A DNA stretch of 46,999 nucleotides from Deltaproteobacteria bacterium. Its GTDB lineage: Bacteria > Desulfobacterota > Deferrimicrobia > Deferrimicrobiales > Deferrimicrobiaceae. Positions 3,983 to 46,999 of the stretch are shown in pieces. The stretch spans positions 70,059 to 117,057 of the forward strand of contig JACRIV010000113.1 in NCBI GenBank assembly GCA_016220005.1. The letters run 5' to 3'. The notes under the pieces were generated by a model. It was not told the origin of the DNA, ran no database searches, and saw nothing but the letters and a program-made list of their open reading frames with translations. The translations under genes were made by a program, and so were the position numbers. Numbering within the stretch: the stretch's first letter is position 1; each line of letters begins with the position of its first letter.

Positions 3983-5722
3983 TCAAAAACGCTCTTCGGG
4001 AAATAGGTCTTCCAGCTTCTTCCGGAGAATCTTCCCGATCTCCTCCGCGGTCCCGTGGAGCAGCAGGCCGGAGACGAACTCCTTCGCCTCGTAGGCCACC
4101 GATTTCCGGAGGATCCGCTTGACCCGGGGGATCGATGTCGCGTTCATGCTGAGTTCGTCCATCCCCAGGCCCAGGAGGACGTAGGCATACAGGGGCTCGC
4201 CGGCCATCTCTCCGCACATCGACACAGGGATCCTGGCGTCGTGGGCCCCCTCGACGGTGCGGCGCACCAGCCGCAGGATCGCAGGGTGCAGCGGCTCGTA
4301 GAGGTACGAGACGTGCTCGTTCACGCGGTCGATGGCCAGGGCGTACTGGATCAGGTCGTTGGTCCCGATGCTGAAGAAATCGACCTCCCTTGCCAGCAGG
4401 TCGGCGACCATCGCCGCGGAAGGGATCTCCACCATGATCCCCACGGGCATCTCCTTGTCGAAGGCGATCCGCTTCCTGCGCAGCTCGGCCCTCGCCTCCT
4501 CGACGAGGGCCAGGGCCGCCCGCAGCTCACCCACCCCGGAGATCATCGGGAACATCATCCGGACCATCCCGTGGGACGACGCCCGCAGGATGGCGCGCAC
4601 CTGGGCCTTGAAGATCTCCTTCTCTTTCAGGCAGAACCGGATCGCCCGGAGGCCCATCGCGGGATTCATCTCGTCGGCCAGCTCGATCTGGGAGGCGAAC
4701 TTGTCCCCGCCCAGGTCCAGGGTCCGGATAGTGACGGGATGGCGGGCGAACTTCTCCGTCACCTTCCGGTAGGTCTGAAAATGCTCCTCCTCCGAAGGGA
4801 GGTCCTTCCGGTTGAGGAACAGGAACTCCGTCCGGTACAGCCCCACCCCTTCCGCCCCGCTCCGGAGCGCGGCGTCCGCCTCCTCGGCGAACTCGATATT
4901 GGCGTGGAGCCGGAGCGTCCTGCCGTCCCGGGTAACGGCCGGGAGCCTGGCGAACCTGGAGAGGTCGCGGATCCGGAGAGAGTACTCCTTCCGCTTTTCC
5001 GTGTACTCGCGGATCGCCTCGGGCGTGGGCCGCAGGATGACGATCCCCTCCTCCCCGTCGACGATGATCTCGTCGGGCTCGGCGAACTCGTCGGTCACCC
5101 GCTCGAGACCCACCACCGCGGGGATCCCGAGGGAGCGCGCGGTGATCGCCGTGTGGGAGGTCTTGCTCCCCACGTCCGTGGCGAACGCCAGGACGGGGCT
5201 CTTGAGGATCTGGGCGGTGTCCGCCGGGGAGAGGTCGTGGGCGATCACGATCACGGCGTCCCGGATGGCGGCGACCGAGTCGACGGGCCTGCCGGCGAGG
5301 TTCTCGAGCACACGATGGCCGATCTGCCGCAGGTCGTGCCCCCGCTCGCGGAGGTACTGGTCCTCGATGCGATGGAAGGTCTCCAGGAGGTTCTGGAGGA
5401 CCTTGTTGAACGCCCAGTCCGCCTTGAACTGGTTCTCCCGGATGAGGCGGACCGTCTGGTCGATGAGCATCGAGTCCTCGAGGAGCGCCAGGTGGACGGA
5501 GAGGATCTGGTAGTGCTCGGAGGAGTGGTCCTTCACCCCCTCGCGGATCCCGCGGATCTGCTCCTTGGACCGGTTCACCGCGCGCAGGAACGCGGAAACC
5601 TCCTCTTCGACCTTTTCGCGGAGGACCGTCGAGTGGACGGAGCTGGGCAGCGCCCGGGAAAGGAAAAAGCCCCGGCCTATGGCCACGCCGGCGGATGCGG
5701 GGATCCCGTGCATCACCTTCAT
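3983..5722 (-). CDS. ptsI: PTS enzyme I (phosphoenolpyruvate-protein phosphotransferase)
   Basis: Takes phosphate from phosphoenolpyruvate and passes it to HPr, starting the PTS phosphorelay. From ATG 5722 the protein is 579 residues and begins MKVMHGIPASAGVAIG, the usual family start. The active-site histidine is His190 in GSKTSHTAITARS. The C-terminal PEP-binding barrel shows YRTEFLFL, RTLDLGGDK and the conserved cysteine in MCGEMAGEP. A GTG at 5746 with AGGA upstream would add eight residues and cannot be excluded; I prefer 5722 because GGGGGA lies nine bases before it. It directly follows ptsH, so the general PTS proteins are encoded together with the sugar-specific enzyme II genes. Confidence 0.95.
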   Translation of the reverse strand: MKVMHGIPASAGVAIGRGFFLSRALPSSVHSTVLREKVEEEVSAFLRAVNRSKEQIRGIREGVKDHSSEHYQILSVHLALLEDSMLIDQTVRLIRENQFKADWAFNKVLQNLLETFHRIEDQYLRERGHDLRQIGHRVLENLAGRPVDSVAAIRDAVIVIAHDLSPADTAQILKSPVLAFATDVGSKTSHTAITARSLGIPAVVGLERVTDEFAEPDEIIVDGEEGIVILRPTPEAIREYTEKRKEYSLRIRDLSRFARLPAVTRDGRTLRLHANIEFAEEADAALRSGAEGVGLYRTEFLFLNRKDLPSEEEHFQTYRKVTEKFARHPVTIRTLDLGGDKFASQIELADEMNPAMGLRAIRFCLKEKEIFKAQVRAILRASSHGMVRMMFPMISGVGELRAALALVEEARAELRRKRIAFDKEMPVGIMVEIPSAAMVADLLAREVDFFSIGTNDLIQYALAIDRVNEHVSYLYEPLHPAILRLVRRTVEGAHDARIPVSMCGEMAGEPLYAYVLLGLGMDELSMNATSIPRVKRILRKSVAYEAKEFVSGLLLHGTAEEIGKILRKKLEDLFPEERF

Positions 5723-10450: not shown

Positions 10451-10802
10451 CTAAGTGCTGCAGTTCATAACTGCGATCACGTATTCAGCCGCTGACTCCG
10501 TGAGGCGCTTCGCCTCCGGTGGCTCCGTGCTCGCATCGTCGCCTGCGGCTCCCCGGCTGCATCAGCGACGGCCAGGGATGGCCTAGTGCCGCGGGAGCCA
10601 TGGATGGCGGGAGCGGCCGAACGTGCCCAACGCTCCCCTCCCAGTCTTTCCAGCTCCCCATGCAGTCCGCTCACCCTTGTCCATCCCAGGAAAACGGGGC
10701 CTTTCGCCGGTTCCGCCGCGGCTACTCGCTTGCGCCGGACCCCCCTGCGGCTGCGCCTCGCGCAGACAAGACGTGGCCTTATTTATGAAATGCAGCACTC
10801 AG
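10451..10802. repeat. Terminal-inverted-repeat element, copy B (ptsN-hprK gap)
   Basis: This 352-bp element fills nearly all of the gene-free stretch 10424-10798. The left end CTAAGTGCTGCAGTTCATAA (10451-10470) pairs with the reverse complement of the right end CTGAGTGCTGCATTTCATAA (10783-10802), 27 of 35 positions matching over the longer ends. The TGA in CTGAGTG is the ptsN stop codon (10799-10801). The inside has blocks shared with copy D at 46708, such as CCTCCGG...TCCGTGCTCGC and GTCGCCTGCGGCTCCC near the left end and GCGCCGGACCCCCC near the right. It also holds the small hairpin GCCATGGATGGC (10598-10609). No coding frame is credible. Confidence 0.75.
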
Positions 10803-44607: not shown

Positions 44608-45528
44608 TCAGTGCTGCCCGAGCTGCCTGGCCACCTCGGCGGCAAGGTCGTCGGAGCGTTTCTCCATCCCCTCGCCGACCTGGAAGCGGGCGAAGTCGGC
44701 CACGCGCACTTCCGCCCCGACCTTCGCGGCCATCGCCTTCAAGAGTTCCTTCACCTTCCGGTCCGGATCCTTGATGAACGCCTGCTCGACCAGGCAGAAG
44801 TCCCCGTAGAACTTCTCGAGCTTCCCTTCCGCGATCTTGTCGAGGATCTTCTCCGGCTTGCCCGCCGCAAGCGCCTGCTCCCGATAAATGGCCTTCTCCC
44901 GGGCGATCGCTTCGGGCGGGACGTTCTCCCTGGAGATGTAGGAAGGGTTGGCCGCGGCGACCTGCATCGCAAGGTCCTTGCCGAGGGCGGCGAACTCCGG
45001 GGCGTCCGCCCCGGCGCCGTGCAGCTCGACCAGGACCCCGATCTTCCCGCCCGCGTGGATGTACGGGACCACGACGCCTTTCGTCCCCGCCGGCGGCGCG
45101 TAGCGGACGAACCGCCGGAAGGAGATCTTCTCGCCGATCTTGGCGACCCGCTCGGTCAGCTTCTCGTCCAGGGTGGCGCCGCCCGCCGGGAGGGCCAGCG
45201 CGGCCTCCACGTCCCGGGGAGCCTTCGCGTGCACCAGGGCGGCGACTTCCCGAACGAACGCCTGGAAATCTTCGGTCTTGGCGACGAAGTCCGTCTCGCA
45301 GTTCACCTCGACGAGGGCCCCCGCGGCGCCGTCCACGTGCGCGGCGACCACCCCTTCCGAGGCGATGCGGCCGGCCTTCTTCGCCGCCGCCGCCAGCCCC
45401 TTCTTCCTCAGGTAGTCGATCGCCTGCTCCATGGCGCCGCCGGACTCCGTCAGCGCCTTCTTGCAATCCATCATCCCCGCGCCGGTCTTTTCGCGCAGTT
45501 CGCGTACCATCTCCGATGTGATCTGCAT
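44608..45528 (-). CDS. tsf: Translation elongation factor Ts
   Basis: Nucleotide exchange factor for EF-Tu. The 306-residue protein has the UBA-like start [19 protein letters not shown], then [14 protein letters not shown] (79-84 TDFVAK), and a C-terminal core with [16 protein letters not shown]. At 306 residues it is a full-length two-subdomain form. It lies downstream of rpsB across a 153-base gap carrying a CRISPR-type repeat. Confidence 0.97.
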
Positions 45529-45557
45529 CCCTTATCTCTCCCGGTCGATAATCGTTT

Positions 45558-45590
45558 GTTTCAATCCACGCGCCCCAAGCGGGGCGCGAC
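45558..45590 (-). repeat. Single CRISPR-type repeat (type I-C-like) between rpsB and tsf
   Basis: A 33-base sequence that on the minus strand begins GTCGCGCCCC, has a perfect 8-bp stem (CGCGCCCC, loop GCTT, GGGGCGCG), and ends GTGGATTGAAAC. Length, stem and the terminal GGATTGAAAC all match type I-C CRISPR repeats. There is no second copy 30-40 bases away on either side, no array and no cas genes. It lies 29 bases before the tsf ATG, so on the tsf transcript it would form a hairpin in the leader. Confidence 0.7.
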
Positions 45591-45640
45591 ATGACGAGTT
45601 GACCGTTGCGAGGCCATTTAGACGAAATCGCGCTGCGATG

Positions 45641-45679
45641 CCCGGGCGGGCCCGGGGGGCGGCGACCGCTTCGCCCGGG
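45641..45679. other. GC-rich stem after the rpsB stop
   Basis: CCCGGGCG (45641-45648) and CGCCCGGG (45672-45679) form a perfect 8-bp stem with a GC-rich loop, two bases past the rpsB stop. No T run follows, so it is more likely a processing or attenuating hairpin than a full terminator. Confidence 0.35.
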
Positions 45680-45681
45680 TC

Positions 45682-46506
45682 CTATTCCTCGCCCGCGGCC
45701 GAGACCCCGGGAGGCTCCGCCGAAGGCTCCTCCTCGGTGGATATCAGCGACATGGTGACCTCCTGGGTCACCGCTTCCTTGTCCCCCTCGGAGGCCGTCT
45801 TCTCGGCGTAAGCCGCCTTCCCTTCGATGATCGCGTCGGCGACCTTCGAGAGGAAGAGCTTGATCGCCCGGATGGCGTCGTCGTTCCCGGGGATGACGTG
45901 ATCGATGAGGTCGGGGTCGCAGTTGGTGTCGACGATGGCGATGATGGGGACTCCCAGGCGGCGCGCTTCGAGGACCGCGATCTGCTCGCGTGAGGGGTCG
46001 ACGACGAACAGGGCGTCGGGGACGCGGCGCAGCTCGCGGATGCCGCCCATCACCTTCTCCATCTTGACGCGCTCCTTCTCGAGCTTCAGCACTTCCTTCT
46101 TCGGGAGCTTCTCGGCGGTCCCGTCGGTGCCCATCTCGCTCAGGCGCTGGAGCCGGTCGAGGCTCTTGCGGATCGTCTGGAAGTTGGTGAGCATTCCTCC
46201 CAGCCAGCGCTGGTTGACGTAGGGGGTGCCGGCGCGCCGGGCTTCCTCCTCCACGGCCTCCTGCGCCTGCTTCTTGGTGCCCACGAAGAGGATCGTCCTT
46301 CCCTCGGCGGCCATGTCCCGCACCACATCGTACGCGTGCCGGAACATCTTCACCGTCTGCTGCAGGTCGATGATGTAGATCCCGTTGCGGGCGGTGAAGA
46401 TGTACTTCTTCATCTTCGGGTTCCACCGCTTGGTCTGGTGCCCGAAGTGGACGCCCGCCTCCAGCAGCTGCTTCATCGTGATGACCGAGCCTTGTCCGTT
46501 CGCCAT
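45682..46506 (-). CDS. rpsB: 30S ribosomal protein S2 (uS2)
   Basis: The 274-residue product starts [20 protein letters not shown] and shows [22 protein letters not shown]-like [16 protein letters not shown] and [12 protein letters not shown], all diagnostic. It has an acidic C-terminal tail ([11 protein letters not shown]) beyond the conserved core, as in several delta-group species. ATG 46506 is preceded by AGGAGG and GGAAGG. It heads the rpsB-tsf-pyrH-frr operon. Confidence 0.97.
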
Positions 46507-46569
46507 GCCTTCCCTTCCTCCTTCGGTTCGGGGTTGGTCCTCCGGGCGTTCCGCCCCTCCCCATCCACC

Positions 46570-46591
46570 CCGGCTTTTCGCAAAAAGCCGG
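46570..46591 (-). promoter_or_regulatory. Hairpin in the rpsB leader
   Basis: CCGGCTTTT and AAAAGCCGG form a perfect 9-bp stem with a 4-base loop, about 64 bases before the rpsB ATG. A structured S2 leader that binds the protein and represses the operon is known in other bacteria; whether this is its equivalent is inference. Confidence 0.4.
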
Positions 46592-46641
46592 AGCACCCCG
46601 GGGAGAGTCCCGCCCGTGGGGGATGATTGCCTAATCGGTCA

Positions 46642-46707: not shown

Positions 46708-46999
46708 CTTAGTATGCCGTTTCACAACTACGGTCACGTATGTTGTTGCAAGAGGCGCTTGCCTCCGGGGGGTCCGTGCTCGCGCTGTCGCCTGCGGCTC
46801 CCCTGCACAGTGCTCCACGTGCCACGCGGTCCTCTCCTCGCACTTCGGTCACCCGCCGTGGTCCGCCAAGCCGGTTTGTTGCAAGGGTGGTGCGCCTGAG
46901 ACGGACGGTTCCGCCTTGGCTCCACGCTGCGCCGGACCCCCCTTCGGCTGCGCCTCACGTGCACAATACGTGACCGTATTTGTGACAGGGCGCACTTAG
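46708..46999. repeat. Terminal-inverted-repeat element, copy D (right edge)
   Basis: This 292-bp element fills the right end of the window. The left end CTTAGTATGCCGTTTCACAA (46708-46727) and the reverse complement of the right end, CTAAGTGCGCCCTGTCACAA (46980-46999), continue through matching ACGGTCACGTA; 28 of 34 positions agree. It is flanked on the left by the dispersed 20-mer at 46688-46707. Interior blocks match copy B at 10451. The right end CTAAG suggests that a minus-strand gene with stop TAA at 46996-46998 lies just beyond the window. Confidence 0.75.

Follow-up and report, generated by a model that had tools for sequence, protein, structure and literature searches.

A lone type I-C CRISPR repeat in the rpsB-tsf gap of a member of the Deferrimicrobiaceae

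The rpsB-tsf gap and its repeat

The window, i.e. the whole stretch of 46,999 nucleotides that was analyzed, carries rpsB and tsf on the minus strand, separated by a gap of 153 nt. Pfam matches to Ribosomal_S2 and EF_TS confirmed the identities of the two genes. A full-form type I-C CRISPR repeat of 33 bases had been reported between the genes, and it was found exactly there, at 45558-45590. It reads from 45590 to 45558 on the strand that encodes rpsB and tsf (minus) and is thus in sense with both; it lies 91 nt 3' of the rpsB stop codon and 29 nt 5' of the tsf ATG. The features of the locus, all on the minus strand, are as follows.

44608..45528, minus strand: tsf, elongation factor Ts (Pfam PF00889)
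45529..45567, minus strand: ancestral tsf leader, common to relatives, including the Shine-Dalgarno sequence GGGAG; the repeat's 3' end coincides with the first 10 nt of this leader
45558..45590, minus strand: solitary type I-C CRISPR repeat GTCGCGCCCCGCTTGGGGCGCGTGGATTGAAAC
45558..45568, minus strand: TGGATTGAAAC, 11 nt, would-be crRNA 5' handle after Cas5c cleavage (from the sequence; handle length according to PMC5965380)
45569..45588, minus strand: repeat hairpin, stem CGCGCCCC/GGGGCGCG, loop GCTT (from folding)
45568..45632, minus strand: net insertion of 65 nt relative to the gap of the relative G014, comprising 42 nt (about spacer-sized) and the first 23 nt of the repeat (flank alignments, gap comparison)
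45591..45625, minus strand: 35 nt upstream of the repeat, in spacer position (flank alignment)
45633..45658, minus strand: ancestral GC hairpin after rpsB, CCCCCGGGCCCGCCCGGGCATCGCAG, common to G014
45682..46506, minus strand: rpsB, 30S ribosomal protein S2 (Pfam PF00318)

The repeat has the GTCGC...GCGTGGATTGAAAC form with a perfect stem that defines type I-C CRISPR repeats. It matched the I-C pattern GTCGCNCCCCNNNNGGGGNGCGTGGATTGAAAC at 27 of 27 specified positions, and no match to the repeat arose in 100 shuffles of the window. Folding gave a stem of 8 bp closed by a 4-nt loop (-18.1 kcal/mol, z = -3.0). The GTCGC start and the 8-bp stem described before are both present, with the correction that they overlap, the first paired base being the third base of GTCGC. 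The match to the Rfam family CRISPR-DR9 reached only 22 bits, under the cut-off of 45. The hairpin is not followed by a U tract and is therefore not an intrinsic terminator; neither a promoter nor a terminator was found within the 65-nt insert. Farther upstream, at 46533-46638, there is a weak match to t44 RNA, the rpsB leader (28.9 bits, under the cut-off of 44).

A search of the genome for the same 33-mer, as had been suggested, found it only once in the assembly, at this site of the window. The exact sequence was also absent from the viral and genome contigs searched, a set from which the own genome was possibly left out. The window holds one repeat and not the two or more with intervening spacers that make an array: no second copy was found up- or downstream (best local matches, p = 0.1-0.3). 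Candidates for a decayed neighboring repeat in the window were rejected as not significant, the upstream GTCGCCGCCCCCC at a distance of 76 nt being within chance. The absence of an array and of cas genes from the window, as first annotated, was borne out, and Cas1, Cas5, and Cas8c were not found in the assembly either (PF09709, PF09704, and PF01867 unmatched); at 90.7% completeness, a cas locus could be missing from this draft. At the contig end, positions 46708-46999 hold a dispersed repeat of ~220 nt with inverted ends (46708-46741 and 46966-46999), which has 18 matches in the genome, including in the window near 10502-10557 and 10708-10802.

The assembly consists of 142 contigs, and a read from a CRISPR array might have been misjoined into the operon. 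Such an artefact is extremely unlikely: both flanks of the repeat run into orthologous leader sequence, two false junctions only 65 nt apart would be needed, and the assembly has no other exact copy of the repeat.

Type I-C repeats in the family and the phylum

Of 395 phylum genomes, 96 contained the general I-C pattern GTCGC-N(12-17)-GCGTGGATTGAAA, most of them in multiple copies. The reversed control pattern occurred in none, which makes a chance match very unlikely. The nearest counterpart of the repeat was found in the same family. G004 possesses Cas8c and a complete type I-C array with more than 60 repeats of the sequence GTCGCGCCCCGCGCGGGCGCGTGGATTGAAAC at a period of 65-68 nt. This array repeat and that of the window differ only in the loop; they agree even in the stem's variable G-C pair. 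The G004 array lies ~8 kb upstream of that genome's rpsB, on the same strand.

A second family member, G009 from a sister genus, has a relic two-repeat I-C array (L205, G009:C72:72000-82000, repeat at 4624). One exact repeat is followed by 34 nt and then by the degenerate repeat GTCGCGCCCCGTTTTGGGAATTCGG (66 nt on), and Cas8c was not found in this genome; the locus is a decayed array. The agreement with the G004 and G009 arrays supports the initial suggestion of a remnant or insertion of a repeat, as do the lack of the repeat in the relatives' gaps and a net insertion of one array unit (below). Across the phylum, exactly one exact I-C repeat was present in 20 genomes, some of them with the match at a contig edge or with a degenerate second repeat. 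As 16 of these 20 were without Cas8c, orphan I-C repeats form an ordinary class in the phylum. The repeat GTCGCGCCCCGCGTGGGCGCGTGGATTGAAA is common to three phylum families (L187, G289:C438; L205, G009:C72; L149, G349:C172), a sharing of sequence that gives a hint of I-C system transfer.

The enzyme that processes type I-C repeats is Cas5c/Cas5d, whose cut leaves an 11-nt 5' handle (PMC5965380). If I-C Cas proteins were present, Cas5c would be expected to cut between the stem and the handle, parting the rpsB from the tsf mRNA with the handle on the tsf side. Cleavage of the transcript, as proposed in the initial annotation, is conceivable in principle, although the own genome yielded no cas gene. 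A functional processing site, at which Cas5c from a system missing in the assembly sets the ratio of S2 to EF-Ts, would agree with the complete substrate form of stem plus handle; in addition, the contig stops 0.5 kb upstream of rpsB, the side on which the G004 array lies. We nevertheless regard this as very improbable, since Cas8c was detected in just 1 of 24 family genomes and that one, G004, is without the repeat in its own rpsB-tsf gap.

The gap in relatives and the 65-nt insertion

The gap could be read in 19 other genomes of the family. It measured 6-113 nt in these and contained the repeat in none; a partial resemblance was seen in G014 only. A search for related loci with tsf returned distant genomes alone. 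The comparison of the family gaps, which had been proposed as a check, led us to reject a conserved element of the tsf leader. It likewise does not support the idea of a repeat-like hairpin recruited to the tsf leader: the hairpin is kept in no relative, and the ordinary GC hairpin that the family has after the rpsB stop codon is a separate element upstream of the repeat. The relatives compared belong to other genera of the family and do not establish the insertion as recent.

The closest gap was that of G014. On the left, the flank CCCCCGGGCCCGCCCGGGCATCGCAG matched up to CGCAG (p = 0.007); on the right, the match ran from GGATTGAAAC to the Shine-Dalgarno sequence. The two matching flanks are adjacent in G014, leaving a net insertion of 65 nt in the window (45632..45568), which is the size of one spacer-plus-repeat unit; the period of the G004 array is 65-68 nt. 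Where the repeat ends with GGATTGAAAC, G014 reads GGACTTGAAAG, which indicates a landing site similar to the repeat 3' end (GGAcTTGAAAg). Searches of viral contigs, of phages and plasmids, of the own genome, and of the loci fetched gave no convincing protospacer for the upstream segment.

The G014 gap also contains the hairpin CGCTCCCCGCCCGGGGATGCGCAGGGACTTGAAAG, which aligned with the whole repeat at a score of 30, above shuffled sequences. In simulations of GC hairpins with a following TTGAAA, 2% attained this score as well, and a decayed repeat copy in G014 is therefore not established; judged from this alignment, the repeat may conceivably be of partly ancestral origin. The gaps of relatives do have GC hairpins, and together with the G014 alignment this might suggest that an ordinary leader hairpin followed by TTGAAA happens to fit the I-C consensus. 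We consider such convergence very unlikely. It would have to account for the fit at every specified pattern position, for the agreement, loop excepted, with the CRISPR repeat native to the family, and for the silence of the reversed control, and the G014 hairpin aligned at least as well with another window hairpin, upstream of the repeat. The alignment of this upstream hairpin and of the repeat to the single G014 hairpin was also considered as a duplicated target (repeat, spacer, repeat) produced by off-target spacer integration. This was not adopted, because a copied pseudo-repeat would leave the match to a real CRISPR repeat unexplained.

We consider it likely that this is a true repeat of the type I-C CRISPR native to the lineage and that the rpsB-tsf gap gained about one spacer-plus-repeat unit at a point where the leader resembled the repeat 3' end. 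The resemblance of the landing site points to microhomology recombination or to an off-target adaptation complex. Recombination might have involved an array repeat or the solitary repeat of a mobile element. The rpsB-tsf mRNA presumably includes the repeat as a stable hairpin that would have no specific effect as long as I-C Cas proteins are missing. In its present state, the element is probably an inert relic, transcribed as a passive hairpin. Against this account, the repeat is intact, without the decay expected of a very old neutral relic, and the 35 nt upstream of it have no known protospacer. The element could act as a Cas5c cleavage site, and perhaps as an RNA anti-CRISPR-like decoy, only if type I-C Cas proteins are present or arrive.

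Relation to known solitary repeats

Solitary repeat units (SRUs) and RNA anti-CRISPRs (Racrs) were described by Camara-Wilpert et al. 2023, among them RacrIC1, a lone I-C repeat that inhibits type I-C (PMC10651486). The window repeat has the features of an SRU: it is intergenic, matches a known CRISPR repeat, and has no further repeat nearby. The I-C pattern was matched in 14 viral contigs, nine of which carried a solitary repeat (L031, L033, L034, L035, L036, L038, L040, L041, and L042, candidate Racrs). Several of these repeats lie shortly before a codirectional gene, the position expected of the described SRUs (PMC10651486). The precedent of RacrIC1, these viral repeats, and the strong expression expected of the rpsB-tsf operon are compatible with a Racr-like role, in which the transcribed repeat, either a leftover of a mobile element or retained by the host, titrates I-C Cas proteins. 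Such a role is unlikely, as I-C Cas genes were not found in the own genome, no promoter of its own was found for the repeat, and prophage genes were not noticed beside rpsB and tsf, whose flanks were not scanned for phage families. The gap is chromosomal in location and gave only weak matches to phages and plasmids.

A second repeat in a translation operon was encountered in G335. Here, the repeat GTCGCCTTCCGCACGGAAGCGTGGATTGAAAC stands alone, in sense orientation, between rplP and rpmC (L180, G335:C7:391199-391229). The two genes overlap in most relatives, and the solitary repeat is absent from the relatives' gaps. The G335 repeat is flanked on both sides by ATGAAATCG, ~69 nt apart. Two translation-operon cases among roughly a dozen true orphans are suggestive, but this was an after-the-fact observation. 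That host-borne solitary repeats in highly expressed translation operons (rpsB-tsf, and rplP-rpmC in G335) act as an RNA decoy or a Cas5c cleavage switch restraining incoming type I-C immunity is, in our estimate, very unlikely.

Type I-C repeats, orphan repeats, and solitary repeat units are known; new is the place, the tsf leader in a chromosome, as far as the literature searched shows (many subscription papers lie outside it). If the element is a mere relic, as we favor, individual CRISPR units are able to lodge in essential-gene operons, and the 65-nt insert at an ancestral site like the repeat end would be a clean case for repeat movement. If, instead, it is maintained, RNA anti-CRISPR-like decoys would no longer be confined to mobile elements but would include host translation operons, and the expression of EF-Ts would be linked to the processing of CRISPR RNA.

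Among known systems, the G004 array repeat is the same in sequence apart from the loop, with the same hairpin and 3' handle, but the window repeat is a single copy without array, leader, or cas genes inside a translation operon. It shares with orphan or decayed arrays such as G009:C72 the lack of Cas8c, in the same family; G009 retains a spacer and a second degenerate repeat, whereas a second repeat is undetectable in the window. The G335 case is alike in being a lone sense-oriented I-C repeat between two translation genes, with relatives lacking it, and differs in its stem sequence and in the presence of an I-C-type array on another contig. As in SRUs and Racrs, RacrIC1 especially (PMC10651486), one intact intergenic repeat lies within a transcription unit with no cas genes nearby. 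The SRUs catalogued so far come from viruses, prophages, and plasmids, and most of the hosts possess CRISPR-Cas, whereas the window repeat sits in the rpsB-tsf operon of a chromosome, and Cas was not detected in its host.
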